Assembly (NCBI GenBank): GCA_030620115.1
Contig: JAUXFG010000136.1
Coordinates: forward strand, 1-10,528
Direction of reading: 5' to 3'
Length of the DNA stretch: 10,528 nt
Source: Candidatus Fermentibacterota bacterium
GTDB lineage: Bacteria; JAFGKV01
Below, in pieces: positions 1,524 to 10,528 of the stretch (its first letter is position 1; each line of letters begins with the position of its first letter). The notes below the pieces were generated by a model that was not told the DNA's origin, searched no databases, and saw only the letters and a program-made list of their open reading frames with translations. The translations under genes and the position numbers were made by a program.

Positions 1524-1672
1524 AGGCTCCCTCCCCTTCAACTTCTGCAACATGTTGTAGATCGCTGTGACCCAAGCGGCTGGATTTTTCTTGTAAGAAA
1601 ATGCCTGGTGACAAAATAAGAGGAACAAAGAGTGTACTGTGGAATATCCCTCCAGGATGGTAAGGAGCGAGC

Positions 1673-1747
1673 ATGATCATCCGAAACCTCTACAAAAGAA
1701 CAACCGCCTTCCCGATGGGAGGCCCCAGAGGAGCGGGTGCGTCATAG
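1673..1747 (+). CDS. Putative 24-residue leader peptide upstream of ABC exporter genes
   Basis: A short frame starts with ATG at 1673 and stops with TAG at 1745-1747. A strong Shine-Dalgarno sequence, AAGGAG at 1662-1667, sits 5 nt before the ATG, which is better than the site in front of the following ABC gene. The peptide begins MIIRNLYKRTT and ends in a Gly/Pro/Ala-rich stretch. No signal peptide or bacteriocin features are evident. Codons 20-22 (GGA GCG GGT) contain the 8-mer GAGCGGGT (1731-1738), which is the antiterminator arm of the downstream attenuator, so a ribosome at the stop codon would cover that arm. This placement is what makes a regulatory leader peptide more likely than a chance ORF. 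Translation is not proven, and the peptide sequence itself matches nothing I recognise. Confidence 0.6.
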   Translation: MIIRNLYKRTTAFPMGGPRGAGAS

Positions 1748-1835
1748 CTTGATATAGAAAAGCTTCTGCACAAACCCGCTCACGCCCCACGAGCGGGTTT
1801 TTCATTATCAACCCCAGACAATCCCACCCGCTCGT
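1731..1835 (+). promoter_or_regulatory. Transcription attenuator with four alternating complementary 8-mers, upstream of the ABC exporter
   Basis: GAGCGGGT occurs at 1731-1738 (segment 1) and 1791-1798 (segment 3); its exact complement ACCCGCTC occurs at 1774-1781 (segment 2) and 1826-1833 (segment 4). Segments 2 and 3 form the terminator hairpin. Segments 1 and 2 can pair perfectly over 8 bp and would prevent it. Segments 3 and 4 can pair over 10 bp (1789-1798 with 1826-1835), extended by three more pairs past one bulged base. Segment 1 lies in the last codons of the leader ORF at 1673-1747. By established attenuation logic, a ribosome reaching the stop masks segment 1 and allows termination, while an upstream stall leaves it free to antiterminate. 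The function is inferred; the segments are directly visible. Confidence 0.72.
1772..1802 (+). terminator. Rho-independent terminator in the leader of the ABC exporter genes
   Basis: Perfect 10-bp arms AAACCCGCTC (1772-1781) and GAGCGGGTTT (1791-1800) enclose a 9-nt loop, and the transcript carries five consecutive T residues at 1798-1802. It sits 25 nt after the leader ORF stop and 95 nt before the first ABC start codon. It could end transcripts from the upstream deiminase gene, but the competing upstream arm at 1731-1738 makes a conditional role more likely. Confidence 0.85.
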
Positions 1836-1896
1836 TGGTCGTTCCAAACACAACAATCGAACGTACAGGTTACCGCATTTTTCGAGGACGGGCGAG

Positions 1897-3738
1897 ATGA
1901 ATTCAAAGTATAGAATGATTTGGAATTTGATGGCGGGGCAGCGCCTCACCTATGGATTGGCAATAGCGGCACTGGTCTTGGGCTCATGCTTCATGTATTT
2001 GGTCCCAATGGTACCTCAAATCATCATGGATGGCGTGCTGTCAAGCGAGCCGGAAAAGGCCTCCGACTTCGTCGGGCGTGCCGTTGAGCTGACCGGAGGA
2101 CGTGAGTTCCTCAAGGGTCATCTATGGATTCCAGCCATATGGATTCTTTCACTCACGGCGATCTCCGGAATCCTTACCTACCTTCGGAGCCGCTTCGCTG
2201 CAATGGCCAGCGAGGAGATCACGCGGAAGCTGAGAGACCGGCTCTACGACCAGCTTCAACACCTGCCGTGCTCATACCACGACAAGGTGGAAACAGGAGA
2301 TCAGGTTCAGCGTTGTACGTCGGATGTGGAGACGTTTCGTCGATTTCTGGCACATCAAACCGTCGAAATCGGCCGTGCGTTGATCATGATGGTGGTTCCC
2401 CTCCCTCTGATGGTGGCGCTCGATGTGAGAATGACGATAGTTTCTGTGGTGACCATTCCGCCCATCGTCGTTTTTTCGTTCCTCTTCTTCCGCAAAGTTC
2501 AGGCTTCGTTCAAACTGGTTGACGAGGCAGAGGGGCGAATGACGAGCCGATTGCAGGAGAACCTGAGCGGCATCCGGGTGGTGAGAGCGTTCGCCAGACA
2601 GGATTATGAGCAGGAGAAGTTCGGCGAGCGGAATCGGACTCATCGTGACCTCGATTACAGGCTGTACAAGCTCTTTGCCTGGTACTGGTCGATTTCCGAC
2701 TTCCTCTGCATGGGGCAGAAAGCACTGGTGGTCGGCGCCGGCGGATACTTTCTCGCCATGGGACAACTGCAGGTCGGGACATTCTTCTTCTTCCTGGCAG
2801 TGGTGAACATGTTCATCTGGCCGATCCGGATGATGGGTCGGATCCTCTCCGAGTTAGGCAAAGCCCTCGTGGCCATCGGGCGGATAGGTGAAATCCTGGA
2901 TCACCCCAGGGAAAGCAAGCCACCCATCTCCCAGCGGCAGATCCTTCCCATGGATTCCCATGTGGGAAGCGAGATCGTCTTCGAGAGCGTCAGCTTCTCC
3001 CATGATGGATCGGGCCAGGTACTCACGGACATCTCTTTTCGGGCCGCACCGGGGCAGACCGTGGCGCTCCTCGGCCCATCCGGGTCGGGGAAATCGACCA
3101 TCGTCAACCTCCTCCTCAGGTTCTATAACCCCAACAAGGGGTTCATCACCATCGATGGGGTCGATATCGGGAAAGCTAAACGCAAGGATGTGCGGTCGAG
3201 GATCGCAGTGGTCATGCAGGAGCCCTTCCTCTTCTCCAAAACAGTTGGAGAGAACATCAAGTTGGGCAGGACAGAGGCAGACGAGAGCGAGATCGCCCAC
3301 GCCGCAACCACGGCCTGCGTGCATGACGCCATTCTGGAGTTTGATGACGGCTATGAGACAGTGGTCGGCGAGCGCGGGGTCACCCTCTCTGGTGGGCAAC
3401 GCCAGAGGGTAGCCCTGGCACGAGCGCTCCTGGAGGATCCAAGGATCCTGATCCTCGACGACGCGATGAGCTCGGTGGATACGGAAACCGAGACCATGAT
3501 CTTGGACGCACTGTCGCACAAGCTGGGGCAGCACACGACCCTGGTGATCGCACATCGGCTGTCTACGCTGATGCATGCCGACAAAATCGTGGTGATTGAG
3601 CATGGCCGTATAGTCCAGCAGGGAGCGCACGAGACCCTCGTGACCCAAGAAGGACTGTATAGAAGACTCTGGCGAATTCAGAGTATGGTGGAGGACGATG
3701 TGGCTGAATTCAAGGCAGTGGCCGGTGACGCCGCGTGA
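1897..3738 (+). CDS. ABC half-exporter, degenerate catalytic-site subunit (canonical LSGGQ, Walker B Asp-Asp)
   Basis: This 613-residue protein has the usual half-exporter layout: an N-terminal transmembrane domain with about six membrane segments (roughly 16-36, 75-95, 155-175, 178-199, 265-290, 293-315) followed by a cytoplasmic ATPase domain. Visible ATPase motifs are Walker A GPSGSGKST (393-401), Q-loop Gln441, signature LSGGQ (497-501), Walker B ILILD ending at Asp521, and H-loop His553. The residue after Walker B, normally the catalytic Glu, is Asp522. GAGG at 1884-1887 precedes the ATG by 9 nt. Together with the next gene it has the asymmetry known from heterodimeric exporters such as TM287/288 and BmrCD: its own Walker site is degenerate, but it supplies the intact signature to its partner. 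The substrate cannot be read from the sequence; drugs, lipids or peptides are all possible. No peptidase C39 domain is present. Confidence 0.93.
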   Translation: MNSKYRMIWNLMAGQRLTYGLAIAALVLGSCFMYLVPMVPQIIMDGVLSSEPEKASDFVGRAVELTGGREFLKGHLWIPAIWILSLTAISGILTYLRSRFAAMASEEITRKLRDRLYDQLQHLPCSYHDKVETGDQVQRCTSDVETFRRFLAHQTVEIGRALIMMVVPLPLMVALDVRMTIVSVVTIPPIVVFSFLFFRKVQASFKLVDEAEGRMTSRLQENLSGIRVVRAFARQDYEQEKFGERNRTHRDLDYRLYKLFAWYWSISDFLCMGQKALVVGAGGYFLAMGQLQVGTFFFFLAVVNMFIWPIRMMGRILSELGKALVAIGRIGEILDHPRESKPPISQRQILPMDSHVGSEIVFESVSFSHDGSGQVLTDISFRAAPGQTVALLGPSGSGKSTIVNLLLRFYNPNKGFITIDGVDIGKAKRKDVRSRIAVVMQEPFLFSKTVGENIKLGRTEADESEIAHAATTACVHDAILEFDDGYETVVGERGVTLSGGQRQRVALARALLEDPRILILDDAMSSVDTETETMILDALSHKLGQHTTLVIAHRLSTLMHADKIVVIEHGRIVQQGAHETLVTQEGLYRRLWRIQSMVEDDVAEFKAVAGDAA

Positions 3739-3903: not shown

Positions 3904-5739
3904 ATGGATGAACAAGAACTACAACAAGAAGAAAGTCAGAGACGACTGGACATCGGGCTCTGGCGGAGAATCCTGGTTTATGCCAGGCCATATCGCTGGT
4001 CCCTCATCTGCTTGGGGATCACAGGTTTCGTGTTTGCATGGATCGATGCGGTGCTGCCGCGCATTACCGGGTTGATCATTGACGAGGCCACGACGAATGG
4101 ACTAGGGCCCGGACTCGTCAAACAAAGCTTGTACTATCTCGGGCTCGTGACCCTGATGGCCTTCCTGATTTGGCTGTTCATCGTGAAGGCAGGGCGCGCG
4201 GCAACGGGCTTCGCCTTTGACATACGCCGGGCTGCGTTCTCGCGCCTCCAGGAGCTGTCATTCTCGTTCTATGACCAACGGCCGGTGGGATGGCTGATGG
4301 CGCGGCTCACTTCAGATTGTGAGCGTGTCTCTTCCATCATCCCATGGTTCCTGTTGGATCTCGTGTGGGGCAGTACGCTCATCGTAGGCATAAGCATCAT
4401 GATGCTTCATCTCAATAAGCACCTGGGGCTCTTGGTGATGCTGATCCTGCCTCCCCTGGCCGTGGTGAGCGTTTTCTTCCAGCGCAAGCTTCTCGGGAGC
4501 CAACGCGCTGTCCGGAAGACGAACTCGGAGATCACTGCAAGCTTCAACGAGGCAATCATGGGCGTGCGCACCACCAAGACGCTTGTCAGGGAGCGGGAGA
4601 ACCTGGAGGAGTTTGAGGTTCGATCCACTGCCATGTATGGCCACTCCGTGCGTAATGCTCTGCAGGCCGCGGTCTATCTTCCCATCGTCATCACCCTGGG
4701 TAGTATCGGCGTCGGGCTCGCGCTCTGGCGGGGAGGTCTTCAGATCGGTGGGGAGATGAGCTTCGGAACCATGATCGCCTTCATGCAGTATGCCGCATTT
4801 TTCTATATCCCGGTGCAGGAGCTTGCCGAAAGGTTCACGCAGCTTCAAGCAGCACAGGCCTCGGCTGAGCGCCTGCAGGGGCTTATCGACACCGAACCGG
4901 ACATCAAGGATTCTCCGGAGGTGATCGAAAACATGGAACAAGAGATCAAGCTCGGGCGATTCGAGGAAAAAATTCACTCGGTGGAATTCGAGAAAGTCTC
5001 ATTTCACTACAAGGAAGGGGAGCCTGTGCTCGTGGACTTCGATCTCCGCGTAGGCGCAGGAGAGACCATCGCTCTCGTAGGTCCCACCGGAGGCGGGAAG
5101 AGCACAATCGTGAGTCTGCTCTGCCGGTTTTATGAACCGACCTCAGGGTCGATCAAGATCAATGGAATCGACTACCGCCAGCGGGGTCTCCTCTGGCTCC
5201 AATCGAAGCTTGGTATCGTGCTCCAATCGCCCCACCTCTTCAGCGGGAGCATCCGTGATAACATCCGTTATGGGAGTCTCGAGGCCAGCGATAAGGATGT
5301 TATCGAGGCAGCCAAGGTGGTGAATGCACATGAGTTCATCTCGGCTCAGGAAAATGGCTATGAGACGGATGTAGGGGAAGGAGGGACTCGTCTTTCCACC
5401 GGCCAGAAACAGCTCATCTCTCTTGCACGGGCAGTCCTCTCCGATCCGGAGATCTTCATCATGGACGAGGCGACCTCATCGGTGGACACTGAGACAGAGA
5501 GGCTGATTCAAGAAGGGATCAAGACGGTACTCCAGGGGCGGATCAGCTTCATCATTGCGCATCGCCTCTCCACGGTCCGATCAGCTGATCGAATCATGGT
5601 TATCGAGCAGGGACGAATCGTGGAACAGGGCAACCATGAGGAATTGATCCGGCTCCAAGGCCGCTACCACTATCTCTACACGGGTCAGTTTGCCCGGGAG
5701 CGCCAGGAAGGGATTCTCCAGGAAGTAGCAAGCGAATGA
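3904..5739 (+). CDS. ABC half-exporter, catalytic-site subunit (Walker B Glu, degenerate LSTGQ)
   Basis: This 611-residue protein is a second half-exporter with an N-terminal membrane domain and a C-terminal ATPase domain. It has Walker A GPTGGGKST (393-401), Q-loop Gln441, signature LSTGQ (497-501) in place of LSGGQ, Walker B Asp521 followed by catalytic Glu522, and H-loop His553. These numbers are identical to those in the upstream subunit. The intact Glu here would pair with the intact LSGGQ of the first subunit, and its altered LSTGQ with the first subunit's Asp522 site, giving one working and one degenerate ATP site. AGGA at 3891-3894 lies 9 nt before the ATG. The first ~20 residues are rich in Glu and Gln and cytoplasmic. 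It follows the first subunit on the same strand with only repeat DNA between, so co-transcription is likely. The substrate is unknown. Confidence 0.94.
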   Translation: MDEQELQQEESQRRLDIGLWRRILVYARPYRWSLICLGITGFVFAWIDAVLPRITGLIIDEATTNGLGPGLVKQSLYYLGLVTLMAFLIWLFIVKAGRAATGFAFDIRRAAFSRLQELSFSFYDQRPVGWLMARLTSDCERVSSIIPWFLLDLVWGSTLIVGISIMMLHLNKHLGLLVMLILPPLAVVSVFFQRKLLGSQRAVRKTNSEITASFNEAIMGVRTTKTLVRERENLEEFEVRSTAMYGHSVRNALQAAVYLPIVITLGSIGVGLALWRGGLQIGGEMSFGTMIAFMQYAAFFYIPVQELAERFTQLQAAQASAERLQGLIDTEPDIKDSPEVIENMEQEIKLGRFEEKIHSVEFEKVSFHYKEGEPVLVDFDLRVGAGETIALVGPTGGGKSTIVSLLCRFYEPTSGSIKINGIDYRQRGLLWLQSKLGIVLQSPHLFSGSIRDNIRYGSLEASDKDVIEAAKVVNAHEFISAQENGYETDVGEGGTRLSTGQKQLISLARAVLSDPEIFIMDEATSSVDTETERLIQEGIKTVLQGRISFIIAHRLSTVRSADRIMVIEQGRIVEQGNHEELIRLQGRYHYLYTGQFARERQEGILQEVASE

Positions 5740-5811: not shown

Positions 5812-5910
5812 AGATTCTTCGCTCCTCATGGTCGCTCAGAATGACAGTGGTAGTGCAAAAAGACGCGTGAATACCTGTCATTCTGAGGGAACGGAGCGAC
5901 TGAAGAATCT
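5812..5910. repeat. Nested palindromic element, copy 2 (CTCAGAATGACAG / CTGTCATTCTGAG family)
   Basis: Outer arms AGATTCTTC (5812-5820) and GAAGAATCT (5902-5910) and inner arms CTCAGAATGACAG (5835-5847) and CTGTCATTCTGAG (5875-5887) are both perfect inverted pairs. The outer arms are identical to those of the element at 1389-1489 and the inner arms match it over 12 bases, while the core differs. This conservation of ends but not of middle suggests an element family with conserved arms, although gene conversion or simple hairpin selection could also explain it. Confidence 0.82.
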
Positions 5911-5991
5911 GGGTGGGGGAAATGGGGAGAGAAGCGAAGGCGGGGGAATGGGAAAATGGGGGATTGAATCCGCCGGCTGGCGGAAACATTC

Positions 5992-6153
5992 AACATCGAA
6001 CGTCGAATTAGCCCATCAGGCGCTTTGTGACGCAACATCGACCACGCGAGGGACGCGTGGTCGATATGGAGATCCGGGAACATCACATATGCAATCCACC
6101 GGCCGGCCGAGGCTCCCACTTCGGCGTTGGACGTTCGATGTTCGATGTTCGAT
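5992..6153. repeat. GTTCGAT heptamer array with a distant inverted copy
   Basis: Three perfect tandem GTTCGAT units occupy 6133-6153. The left end of the array, GACGTTCGATGTT (6130-6142), has an exact inverted copy, AACATCGAACGTC, at 5992-6004. The enclosed 125 bp contain the 12-bp hairpin at 6037-6065. Again the array and its inverted partner bracket a unique core, as in the spacer between the ABC genes. Confidence 0.82.
6037..6065. repeat. Perfect 12-bp hairpin with 5-nt loop
   Basis: Arms ATCGACCACGCG (6037-6048) and CGCGTGGTCGAT (6054-6065) are exact complements around the loop AGGGA. No T-run follows on either strand, so it is not a typical intrinsic terminator. It sits inside the larger inverted repeat 5992-6142. 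Confidence 0.8.
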
Positions 6154-6367: not shown

Positions 6368-7036
6368 CTAGGATTTCGAATTCGTTTTTGCGGGGTTCCT
6401 GGAGAAGCCCCGCAACCAGCCCATCAGCGGATCAATGCCCTCGCCGGTCTTGCACGAGACCTTGAATACTCGCGCCTTGGGACAGATCTGGGCCAAGCCG
6501 TCTTTCACCTGGTCCATGGAAAAATCCAGGTAGGGCAAAAGATCAATCTTGTTGATGACAACCGCCTTCGCGGTTTTGAATGCCGCGGGATATTTGAATG
6601 GCTTATCAGCGCCTTCGGCGGTGCTAAGCACTACCCAACGCATGGTCTCCCCCAGATCGAAGCTGGCAGGGCAGAGGAGGTTGCCGACATTCTCCACGAA
6701 AAGGAAGTCCCGGTTGCGATAGTCTAACCGGGGCAAGGCGAGCTGCACCATGTTCGCGTCCAAATGACAGGTTCCACGGGTTACGACCTGGATCACGGCG
6801 GCGCCAGCCTTCTCCATGCGCTCCGCATCCATGGCGGTCTCCGGATCCCCTTCCAGCACAGCCATGGAGAGATCATTGCTCCCGGCGATCCTTTCCAGGA
6901 GCGCCGTCTTTCCCGCCCCCGGAGAACCCAGGATATTGACCACGCAGACCCGCTCACGCGAGAACCGTGCGCGATTTTCGCGCGCTGCTTGACTATTGGC
7001 TTTCAGGATCTTTTGTCTGACAGCGATCACCTTCAT
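6368..7036 (-). CDS. hypB: HypB, GTPase for nickel insertion into [NiFe]-hydrogenase
   Basis: HypB is the SIMIBI-class GTPase that works with HypA to load nickel into the hydrogenase large subunit in the cytoplasm. The 222-residue product shows the P-loop GSPGAGKT (37-44), a metal-site Cys90-His91 in GTCHLDA, ENVGNL (115-120) with Cys122, and the guanine-specificity motif NKID (162-165). The Cys-His to Cys spacing (90/91 to 122) equals that of the E. coli HypB metal site (Cys166, His167, Cys198). The His-rich stretch and the N-terminal Cys motif of some HypB proteins are absent, so it is the short form. The start at 7036 is supported by GGAGGT at 7053-7048 on the minus strand, 11 nt upstream and inside hypA. 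It overlaps hypA by 44 bp, so translation is probably coupled. No hydrogenase structural gene is in the window. Confidence 0.95.
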   Translation of the reverse strand: MKVIAVRQKILKANSQAARENRARFSRERVCVVNILGSPGAGKTALLERIAGSNDLSMAVLEGDPETAMDAERMEKAGAAVIQVVTRGTCHLDANMVQLALPRLDYRNRDFLFVENVGNLLCPASFDLGETMRWVVLSTAEGADKPFKYPAAFKTAKAVVINKIDLLPYLDFSMDQVKDGLAQICPKARVFKVSCKTGEGIDPLMGWLRGFSRNPAKTNSKS

Positions 7037-7382
7037 TATTATCTTCTACCTCCAGAGACACCAGCTCCAAATCGCGCCCCCCGGTATGGTCAATACGTGC
7101 CTTCCCGCATGAAGGGCACACAACGGGGAAGGTATCAAACGTGAAATGCTCGCCGCAATCAAGGCAACGCCCGGAAACAAGTACCTCTTCGATTTCGAGC
7201 CCAGGACTACATCCCAGTATGTCTGTGGCCGCAAACCCAAAGGAGAACCGCAGGACATCCGGCACGATGCCTGCAAGACAGCCAATCCGGATGCGTATCG
7301 AAATGGGCGTCACATCGCCATGCTCGAGGAGTACTTCCTTCACATTCTCTGCGATGCTCAAGGCAATGCTCATTTCATGCAT
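6993..7382 (-). CDS. hypA: HypA, zinc-finger nickel chaperone for hydrogenase maturation
   Basis: HypA hands nickel to the hydrogenase large subunit together with HypB. The 129-residue product starts MHEMSIA, the canonical family N-terminus in which the amino terminus and His2 bind nickel, and carries a zinc ribbon with Cys73, Cys76, Cys89 and Cys92 (two CxxC pairs). The family is usually about 113-118 residues; the extra acidic and polar C-terminal tail is what overlaps the hypB start. The start at 7382 is fixed by the MHE motif even though only a weak purine-rich site (AAGGGA type) precedes it. The opposite strand here carries the 5' end of the transglycosylase gene, so its promoter must lie inside that gene. 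Confidence 0.94.
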   Translation of the reverse strand: MHEMSIALSIAENVKEVLLEHGDVTPISIRIRIGCLAGIVPDVLRFSFGFAATDILGCSPGLEIEEVLVSGRCLDCGEHFTFDTFPVVCPSCGKARIDHTGGRDLELVSLEVEDNNEGDRCQTKDPESQ

Positions 7383-8574: not shown

Positions 8575-10528
8575 ATGACCAATCTTGATATCTCCACCGC
8601 GATGACCGTAAAACTCCCTTCGGTCCTGCCCCCAAAGAAGGAGTTCAAAGAGGGGATCCGTCGAGCCCCTGATCGGGGTTTCCCTCTTACGAAGCACGAG
8701 ACTGTGACATCACTGAAGAATGCATTGCGGTACATTCCGGAGGAACTCCACGACACCCTGGCTCCGGAATTCCTGGAAGAACTCACGTCCATGGGAAGGA
8801 TCTATGGCTATCGCTACCGCCCCGGGGAACGCATCTGTGGCAAACCCGTGGACGAGTACAAGGGCATTCTGGAGGCACGAGCGCTTCAGGTAATGATCGA
8901 TAATAACCTCGATTTCGAAATCGCATTGTATCCGTACGAACTGGTCACCTATGGCGAGACAGGTCAAATCTTCCAGAACTGGATGCAATATGGACTAGTG
9001 AAACAGTACCTCGAGATCATGCGGGAAGATCAAACACTTGTGGTGAGCTCGGGGCATCCGGTGGGCCTGTTCCCGTCAGAACGAACCTCGCCTCGCGTGA
9101 TCTCAACCAACGGATTGCTCGTTGGGGAATGGGACAATCCTGAACAGTTCAAGAAGCTGGCTGCCATGGGAGTATCCAACTACGGTCAGATGACTGCCGG
9201 AGGATGGATGTACATCGGCCCTCAGGGCATTGTCCATGGGACGTATCTGACTCTGCTCAATGCGGGCCGGAAGTATCTCGGGATTCCTGCTGACAAGGAT
9301 CTTGAAGGAGTCTTCTTCGTCACATCTGGTCTTGGCGGCATGTCCGGTGCACAAGCAAAAGCAGTGGAGATCGCAGGCGGAATCGGGGTTATCGCGGAGG
9401 TGGACTACAGTCGAATCCAAACCAGGCATTCCCAGGGCTGGGTGAGCAAAGTCTCGGACAACCTTGATGAGATCGCCGGATGGATGGCGGAGCACAAAAG
9501 GACCGGGCAATCCACCTCCATCGCCTACCACGGGAATGTGGTAGATCTTCTTGAATATCTTGATGCCAATAGTATCCATGCCGAACTGCTCTCGGATCAG
9601 ACATCCTGCCACGCAGTGTATGAGGGCGGGTATACGCCGGCGGGGATCACTTTTGAGGCTGGCCGTAAGCTCCTGAAGGAAAACCCAGAGGAGTTCAAAC
9701 GACTGGTTGATCGATCGCTCAAGCAGCACTTCCGCGTCTTGAAACGTTTGACGCAAAAGGGATCATTTTTCTGGGACTATGGCAATAGCTTCATGGCCTC
9801 GGTCTTCGAGGCCGGGGAGAAGGAGATCGCGCAGAACGGAAAAGACACCTCACAAGGCTTTATCTGGCCATCCTATGTGGAAGACATCATGGGGCCAATC
9901 TGCTTTGACCGTGGCTTTGGCCCATTCCGGTGGGTATGCCTGAGTGGCCGCGCTGAGGATCTCCAAACGACCGACAAGGCAGCCATGGCACATATCGATC
10001 CAAAGCAAAGCGCCACCCACAGGGATAACTATTCTTGGATCGCCACCGCCGAACAGAACAAACTCGTAGTCGGCACCAAAGCGAGAATCCTCTATGCCGA
10101 CGAAGAGGGGCGGGTCAAGATCGCCCTGAAATTCAATGAATTAGTGAGAACCGGAATGATCGGTCCCGTGATGCTGGGCCGGGATCATCATGATGTCTCC
10201 GGCACTGATTCTCCCTACCGGGAAACAGCCAATATCTATGATGGAAGCCGACCCACGGCTGACATGTCCGTGCAGTGCTTCGGCGGGAACATCGCCAGGG
10301 GAATGACTCTGGTGGTGCTCTCCAACGGTGGCGGTGTGGGCATCGGCCGCGCCAGCAATGGCGGCAATGGTATCGTGCTCGATGGTAGCGAGCGAATCGA
10401 TAACGTGATTCGGAAAGGGCTTTCCTGGGACGTCATGGGCGGCGTTGCAAGGAGAAGTTGGGCACGCAATGAGAACGCCGTAGAAACCGCCGCGGCTTGG
10501 AACAAAAAACGCGAAGGCAGTGGCCACA
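8575..10528 (+). CDS. hutU: Urocanate hydratase (long form), 3' end beyond window
   Basis: Urocanate hydratase converts urocanate to 4-imidazolone-5-propanoate, the second step of histidine breakdown, using tightly bound NAD+ as an electrophile. The frame is uninterrupted for 651 codons to the window edge. It shows the dinucleotide-binding loop GLGGMSGAQ (252-260), the GPFRWVC segment near 455, and RDHHDVSGTDSP (536-547) followed by RETANIYDGS and NGGGVGIG, all family hallmarks. Length and wording (HHDVSGTDSP, SWDVMGGVARR) match the roughly 670-residue animal/Bacteroidetes-type enzyme rather than the roughly 555-residue Pseudomonas/Bacillus type, so only a short tail should be missing. Where the short form has the signature ARICW with its active-site Cys, this protein reads ARILY (503-507). 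Other hut genes (hutH, hutI) would be expected downstream but cannot be seen. Confidence 0.96.
   Translation, partial: MTNLDISTAMTVKLPSVLPPKKEFKEGIRRAPDRGFPLTKHETVTSLKNALRYIPEELHDTLAPEFLEELTSMGRIYGYRYRPGERICGKPVDEYKGILEARALQVMIDNNLDFEIALYPYELVTYGETGQIFQNWMQYGLVKQYLEIMREDQTLVVSSGHPVGLFPSERTSPRVISTNGLLVGEWDNPEQFKKLAAMGVSNYGQMTAGGWMYIGPQGIVHGTYLTLLNAGRKYLGIPADKDLEGVFFVTSGLGGMSGAQAKAVEIAGGIGVIAEVDYSRIQTRHSQGWVSKVSDNLDEIAGWMAEHKRTGQSTSIAYHGNVVDLLEYLDANSIHAELLSDQTSCHAVYEGGYTPAGITFEAGRKLLKENPEEFKRLVDRSLKQHFRVLKRLTQKGSFFWDYGNSFMASVFEAGEKEIAQNGKDTSQGFIWPSYVEDIMGPICFDRGFGPFRWVCLSGRAEDLQTTDKAAMAHIDPKQSATHRDNYSWIATAEQNKLVVGTKARILYADEEGRVKIALKFNELVRTGMIGPVMLGRDHHDVSGTDSPYRETANIYDGSRPTADMSVQCFGGNIARGMTLVVLSNGGGVGIGRASNGGNGIVLDGSERIDNVIRKGLSWDVMGGVARRSWARNENAVETAAAWNKKREGSGH

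Follow-up and report, generated by a model that had tools for sequence, protein, structure and literature searches.

Analysis of a 10,528-nt stretch of DNA from a Candidatus Fermentibacterota bacterium (contig JAUXFG010000136.1; the whole stretch is hereafter the window) uncovered a short leader ORF and a set of competing RNA hairpins in front of two ABC exporter genes, which quite likely form a ribosome-mediated transcription attenuator controlling the exporter pair. On the basis of folding models, the system is best read as a bmrB/trp-like ribosome-mediated attenuator, in a variant that appears not to have been described before. A first-pass annotation had proposed ribosome-controlled attenuation before a heterodimeric ABC exporter, with pairing of segments 1 and 2 (1:2) excluding that of segments 2 and 3 (2:3), and both RNA folding and the anatomy of the genes support this proposal (Table 1).

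Table 1 Putative leader elements and exporter genes of the window.
Feature	Position	Strand	Basis or remark
Shine-Dalgarno (SD) of leader ORF	1662..1667	+	AAGGAG; 7-nt match TAAGGAG from 1661
Segment 0, start region (codons 1-4), predicted protector / anti-antiterminator	1669..1683	+	pairs with 1734-1750
Leader ORF (predicted), 24 codons, MIIRNLYKRTTAFPMGGPRGAGAS	1673..1747	+	sequence; Met-Ile start in common with short SD-preceded ORFs before orthologues
Small hairpin within leader ORF (GCCUUCC CGAU GGGAGGC)	1706..1723	+	folding
Segment 1, putative antiterminator 5′ arm, GAGCGGGT, codons 20-22	1731..1738	+	pairs with 1774-1781
Segment 2, terminator 5′ arm / putative antiterminator 3′ arm	1772..1781	+	sequence, folding
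Segment 3, terminator 3′ arm	1791..1800	+	hairpin -15.6 kcal/mol
T-run of intrinsic terminator	1798..1802	+	sequence
Segment 4, complementary to segment 3 and terminator loop, 17 nt (88%)	1826..1842	+	sequence
Shine-Dalgarno of first ABC gene (GAGGA)	1884..1888	+	sequence; weakly sequestered in any state
ABC exporter half-transporter A (ABC-A), degenerate Walker B (LILDDA)	1897..3738	+	sequence, relatives
ABC exporter half-transporter B, catalytic Glu (IMDEA), deviant signature LSTGQ	3904..5739	+	sequence, relatives

Leader, terminator and exporter genes in the window

Both downstream proteins are ABCB-type half-transporters. In half-transporter A, Asp replaces the catalytic Glu and the signature is a normal LSGGQ; half-transporter B has IMDEA and the deviant LSTGQ. 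The same set of features characterizes heterodimeric exporters such as TM287/288, TmrAB, and BmrCD, all of which are among the relatives of the pair. The BmrD chain is matched at an E of about 1e-80, behind TM288 and TmrAB, so the relationship to the Bacillus exporter is a distant one. The tetranucleotide profile and dispersed repeats of the contig match the rest of the 4.1 Mb draft genome, which indicates that the contig is not stray DNA, and contamination was rejected as an explanation.

Other content of the window includes the C-terminal part of an agmatine-deiminase-like protein (1-1215, + strand) that has an extra C-terminal region and scores well below the curated family, overlapping hypB and hypA genes for nickel insertion into hydrogenase on the opposite strand (6368-7382), and a urocanate-hydratase-like gene (8575-10527, + strand) whose product exceeds 651 aa, has its family domain preceded by about 100 residues, and is open at the contig edge. 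A dispersed repeat family (ATTCTTCGGTCGC...CTCAGAATGACA...), typically intergenic and a source of spurious ORFs, is present at 1364-1500 and at about 5830-6000, with at least 50 matches in 0.95 Mb of the genome. The copy at 1364-1500 ends before the leader.

The leader ORF, with its AAGGAG 5 nt before the ATG at 1673, had been placed correctly by the first-pass annotation in all coordinates. Its Shine-Dalgarno sequence is a 7-nt match to TAAGGAGGT. Of 478 ATG-started genes scored in this genome, only about 16 have a better one, which ranks it in the top ~3% by longest match. Translation of the ORF is predicted from sequence. Between the ORF and the first ABC gene lies a perfect 10-bp stem with a T-run, again as annotated, which at the sequence level has the form of an intrinsic terminator; RNA 3′ ends would be expected near 1802. 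An 8-mer occurs four times in alternating orientation (GAGCGGGT at 1731 and 1791; ACCCGCTC at 1774 and 1826), and the earlier description of segment 1 as an exact competitor for the terminator 5′ arm, embedded in the coding sequence, is right base for base.

Such an arrangement is rarely produced by chance. When the 97 nt upstream were shuffled with dinucleotide content preserved, 0.06% of the shuffles contained an exact competitor of the 5′ arm of at least 8 nt, as did 0.32% of genuine 97-mers from the same genome; the fourth 8-mer copy (segment 4) arose in 0.22% of shuffles. The folding z-score of the whole leader region is -3.7. Across the 4.1 Mb genome, the stem pattern ACCCGCTC-N3-20-GAGCGGGT occurs just once and the 8-mers show no over-representation, and a repeat-element origin of the 8-mers was rejected on these grounds. 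A simple scan of 0.95 Mb of this genome (loci L018-L097) recovered 36 sites at which a hairpin is followed by a T-run (hairpin+T sites) versus 28 with an A-run instead; most of the 36 are intragenic and about 14 are intergenic, including the terminator ending in T1798-1802.

The default reading for a single hairpin between genes on the same strand is an ordinary intrinsic terminator, which here would separate the upstream gene (ending at 1215) from ABC genes transcribed from their own promoter after 1802, with the ORF and the 8-mers being accidental. A search of 1200-2000 for a sigma-70-like promoter was negative, so transcription from upstream is possible. However, the hairpin is separated from the upstream gene by 556 nt and from the ABC gene by 96 nt, a position made notable by the rarity of intrinsic terminators in this genome; the chance of the competitor is below 0.4%; and terminators and leader ORFs recur before orthologues in several other phyla. 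We consider an ordinary terminator unlikely on this evidence, and favor an attenuator.

Ribosome position and the predicted switch

In the unconstrained fold of 1660-1802, the start region of the leader ORF pairs with the segment 1 region at pair probabilities of 0.98-0.997. This protector, which the first-pass annotation does not mention, is extended by 1660-1668 and 1687-1691, the whole comprising 1660-1691 paired with 1727-1769, and its duplex energy of -28.7 kcal/mol was equalled by none of 1000 shuffles. The terminator forms in naked RNA (p(2:3) = 1.00), segment 1 being held by the protector. Locally, the antiterminator 1:2, which shares the 5′ arm of the terminator, is the more stable fold (-21.3 vs -15.6 kcal/mol), whereas in the whole RNA to 1802 the order is reversed (-44.4 for 1:2 vs -53.5 for 2:3) as the protector contributes to 2:3. 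A competing fold of similar energy to the terminator, without which the first-pass reading would fall, is thus present. The predicted layout is that of protector, antiterminator, and terminator, as in trp and bmrB, and in the folding the protector gives termination without translation.

The effect of ribosome position was modeled by removing the RNA under or behind the ribosome at each codon and folding the remainder at successive transcript ends. With the ribosome on codons 1-15, 1:2 dominates at ends 1785 and 1791 (p 0.99-1.00), while segment 3 is still unfinished. By end 1802, p(1:2) is 0.84-0.91 with the ribosome at codons 9, 10, 13, and 14, about even at codon 12, and lower at other codons. 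For codons 1-5 the terminator wins at equilibrium in the window, so a switch there would need kinetic trapping. A ribosome anywhere from codon 16 to the stop covers segment 1, and p(2:3) is 1.00. The pattern is stable over two energy models and from 15 to 50 C, and when the upstream part was swapped for random genomic DNA, the full three-state logic appeared in 3 of 383 replacements.

These results bear directly on how the first-pass annotation had the switch operate. Its claim that a ribosome at the stop masks segment 1 and permits termination is borne out by folding with masking. The accompanying claim, that a stalled or absent ribosome leads to expression, divides into two: a ribosome stalled at about codons 6-14 does leave segment 1 free, but since the start region sequesters segment 1, an absent ribosome is predicted to give termination rather than expression.

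In the proposed mechanism, three hairpins would exclude one another in a chain: the protector, the antiterminator (1:2), and the terminator (2:3 and its U-run). With no ribosome, the protector would keep segment 1 and the terminator would form. A ribosome translating freely to the stop would open the protector but cover segment 1, again allowing the terminator. Only a ribosome that begins translation and then stalls at around codons 6-14 would leave the protector open and segment 1 free, so that 1:2 could pair before segment 3 is made and polymerase could read into the ABC genes; the freed segment 3 could then pair with segment 4.

The stalling signal may be a translation-inhibiting compound exported by the pump, although we infer an antibiotic as inducer solely from the nature of the downstream genes. 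Thr/Ala contexts such as TTA favor arrest by chloramphenicol-type drugs, and for codons 6-14 of the leader (LYKRTTAFP) this is a lead only. The same three-hairpin logic would serve a trp/his-like attenuator that senses the charging of a particular tRNA rather than a ribosome-binding compound, and codons 6-14 include KRTT and a less-used AGA. Yet the leader peptide contains no run of one amino acid of the kind expected in a biosynthetic attenuator, its codons are not notably rare (lowest share 0.14 in the codon usage of the same genome), and the controlled genes encode exporters, not biosynthetic functions. Sensing of tRNA charging is accordingly very unlikely in our judgment.

Segment 4 lies beyond the T-run and so has no part in the termination decision itself. 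It might instead act on ABC-A translation, its partner being either segment 3 or the Shine-Dalgarno region of ABC-A, in a combined form of control. In RNA ending at 1930, segment 4 pairs with CGAG-GA-CGGG around the Shine-Dalgarno sequence at p 0.72, and VmlR is, according to the abstract of its description, a precedent for joint transcription and translation attenuation (PMC9226507). This pairing drops to p 0.17 with RNA to 1960, however, and accessibility of the Shine-Dalgarno sequence is nearly constant between states (0.39 vs 0.50-0.61). Combined control is therefore improbable, and segment 4 as a sequestrator of the ABC-A Shine-Dalgarno sequence was set aside as weak and dependent on RNA length.

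Leaders before orthologous exporter genes

Orthologues of ABC-A, full-length or nearly so, with 43-57% identity and from outside the phylum of the window, were obtained from whole-genome searches and located in several other phyla. These loci are partly non-independent, since several stem from related genomes that share a family or genus. The 330 nt preceding the gene contain 1.57 hairpin+T sites per kb, about 12 times the 0.13 per kb counted elsewhere in the same loci and on their other strand. Met-Ile starts are found in 8 of 21 SD-preceded short ORFs compared with 12 of 250 in control DNA (Fisher p = 2.3e-5, in a test made after the pattern had already been noticed). The first-pass annotation would lose ground if homologous loci lacked both the ORF and the competing 8-mers, and here the outcome is mixed: a sizeable minority carry an ORF, a terminator, and a competitor, but a clear hairpin+T near the gene is absent from about two thirds of the scanned orthologous loci.

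Leaders before transporter genes are often riboswitches, and the leader of the window could in principle be a metabolite riboswitch, a T-box, or a protein-binding leader in which the short ORF has no role. A covariance-model search detected no Rfam family in the leader at E up to 1, Met-Ile SD-preceded ORFs are enriched before orthologues, and a conserved aptamer-like core is not evident in the compared leaders, all of which makes this explanation highly improbable.

Competitors of the 5′ arm in the preceding 110 nt exceed those in shuffles, with a combined p of 2.5e-6 for the leader-proximal terminators of 11 orthologues (window excluded); taken singly, the competitors of L098, L099, L122, L125, and L132 are weak. 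In eight loci (the window, L098, L099, L100, L101, L108, L125, and L126) the center of the competitor lies no more than ~22 nt from the stop of a short ORF. The clearest parallel is L126, where MVITAMKLWGYTA ends in a TGA that belongs to a 10-nt competitor. The terminator is ahead at equilibrium for every stall position in L098, L099, L100, L111, L122, L125, L126, and L129, so in most orthologues the antiterminator would have to act kinetically. By eye, the leader peptides gave no convincing alignment beyond Met-Ile. A possible P-x-G-[GND] motif was noticed, also by eye, near the leader-peptide ends of the window, L098, L099, L100, and L108 (PMGG, PVGN, PTGD, PVGG, and PIGD), where it would lie near the stall site that folding predicts to be required.

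Seven orthologous loci (L098, L099, L100, L101, L108, L122, and L129) contain a pair of successive terminator-like hairpins. In all of them but L129 the two stem sequences match fully or almost fully, and the pair stands immediately upstream of the ABC-A orthologue, on the reverse strand in L098, L100, L101, and L122. In the five loci scored (L098, L099, L100, L108, and L122), the 5′ arm of the second terminator finds its best complement in the 3′ arm of the first (p 0.002-0.015). Such pairing would give a chain 1:2, 2:3, 3:2′, 2′:3′, with the two terminators switched on together or off together, and this chain would account for the four alternating 8-mer copies in the window. Segment 4 is probably the counterpart of the 5′ arm of the orthologues' second tandem terminator (2′), here lacking a 3′ arm, an assignment made from resemblance of the sequences rather than from alignment. 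Tentatively, and with a little less than even confidence, we suggest an undescribed, widespread family of leader-peptide attenuators in one clade of heterodimeric ABC exporters from uncultivated or little-studied phyla. Its fuller form would have two tandem terminators of one repeated stem governed by one ribosome decision (2:3 and 2′:3′ on, or 1:2 and 3:2′ off), and the window would be a reduced form that keeps 1, 2, 3, and 2′.

Five further loci (L102, L104, L105, L106, and L107) have very short SD-preceded ORFs of 6-10 codons, without a terminator, 50-150 nt before the ABC-A orthologue. Their peptides are MIKTDVII, MIYSGVILGN, MIILYS, MFLTINTAL, and MTTFSRLII; the MIKTD of the first is reminiscent of the cat-86 leader. 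These ORFs are possibly translation attenuators. The leader DNA of the window had no similarity match in 59 other genomes, exact peptide patterns searched in GTDB 220 contigs returned only matches of at most 40% identity, and targeted searches of the phyla or order to which other matches belong yielded no further orthologues. The closest locus in the contig scan, from a Bacillota MAG (L014, 40% identity), carries an SD-preceded 40-codon ORF (2243-2365) and a GC-rich hairpin before the ABC gene.

Relation to known attenuators and biological meaning

The nearest described system is bmrB-bmrCD of Bacillus subtilis, for which a terminator, an antiterminator, and an anti-antiterminator have been predicted, and which is induced by 50S-targeting drugs (PMC4191407). 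It resembles the window in having a short leader ORF, a chain of three structures, and a heterodimeric multidrug-type ABC exporter downstream. Translation of bmrB is needed for induction, and blocking it lowers expression (PMC4191407), matching the protector prediction for the window. The two differ in that bmrB has 53 codons with the terminator inside the coding sequence, while the 24-codon ORF of the window ends at 1747 and its terminator begins at 1772, 24 nt after the stop. Attenuators of the trp/his type likewise combine protector, antiterminator, and terminator, let ribosome position choose between them, and terminate when there is no translation; unlike them, the window has no run of regulatory codons and controls exporters.

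At the level of their abstracts, the antibiotic-sensing uORFs with premature termination of vmlR (PMC9226507), tlrB/yxjB (PMC6851288), and topAI (PMC12121999) resemble the window in having a short ORF before a stress or resistance gene, with stalling-dependent expression as is predicted for the window, but involve other genes, lineages, and leader peptides. Premature terminators were reported to be frequent before ABC transporter genes in the survey of Naville and Gautheret, as 'ABC-leaders' (PMC2965389); the sections of that survey drawn on here do not mention Planctomycetes, tandem terminators, or this exporter family. Literature searches returned nothing relevant on leader-peptide attenuation of ABC transporters in Planctomycetes, or on tandem-terminator attenuators with leader peptides.

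For a multidrug ABC exporter, ribosome-mediated attenuation is already understood in Bacillus subtilis. Comparative sequence evidence suggests that several distant and for the most part uncultivated phyla follow this logic too, their leader ORFs having little in common except a Met-Ile start. In the window, the position of the ribosome on a 24-codon ORF probably decides whether the pump genes are read. If true, such leaders would offer a way to infer that these organisms sense ribosome-targeting compounds in nature, and the testable linked-terminator design would place two terminators under the control of a single ribosome through a chain of repeated stems.
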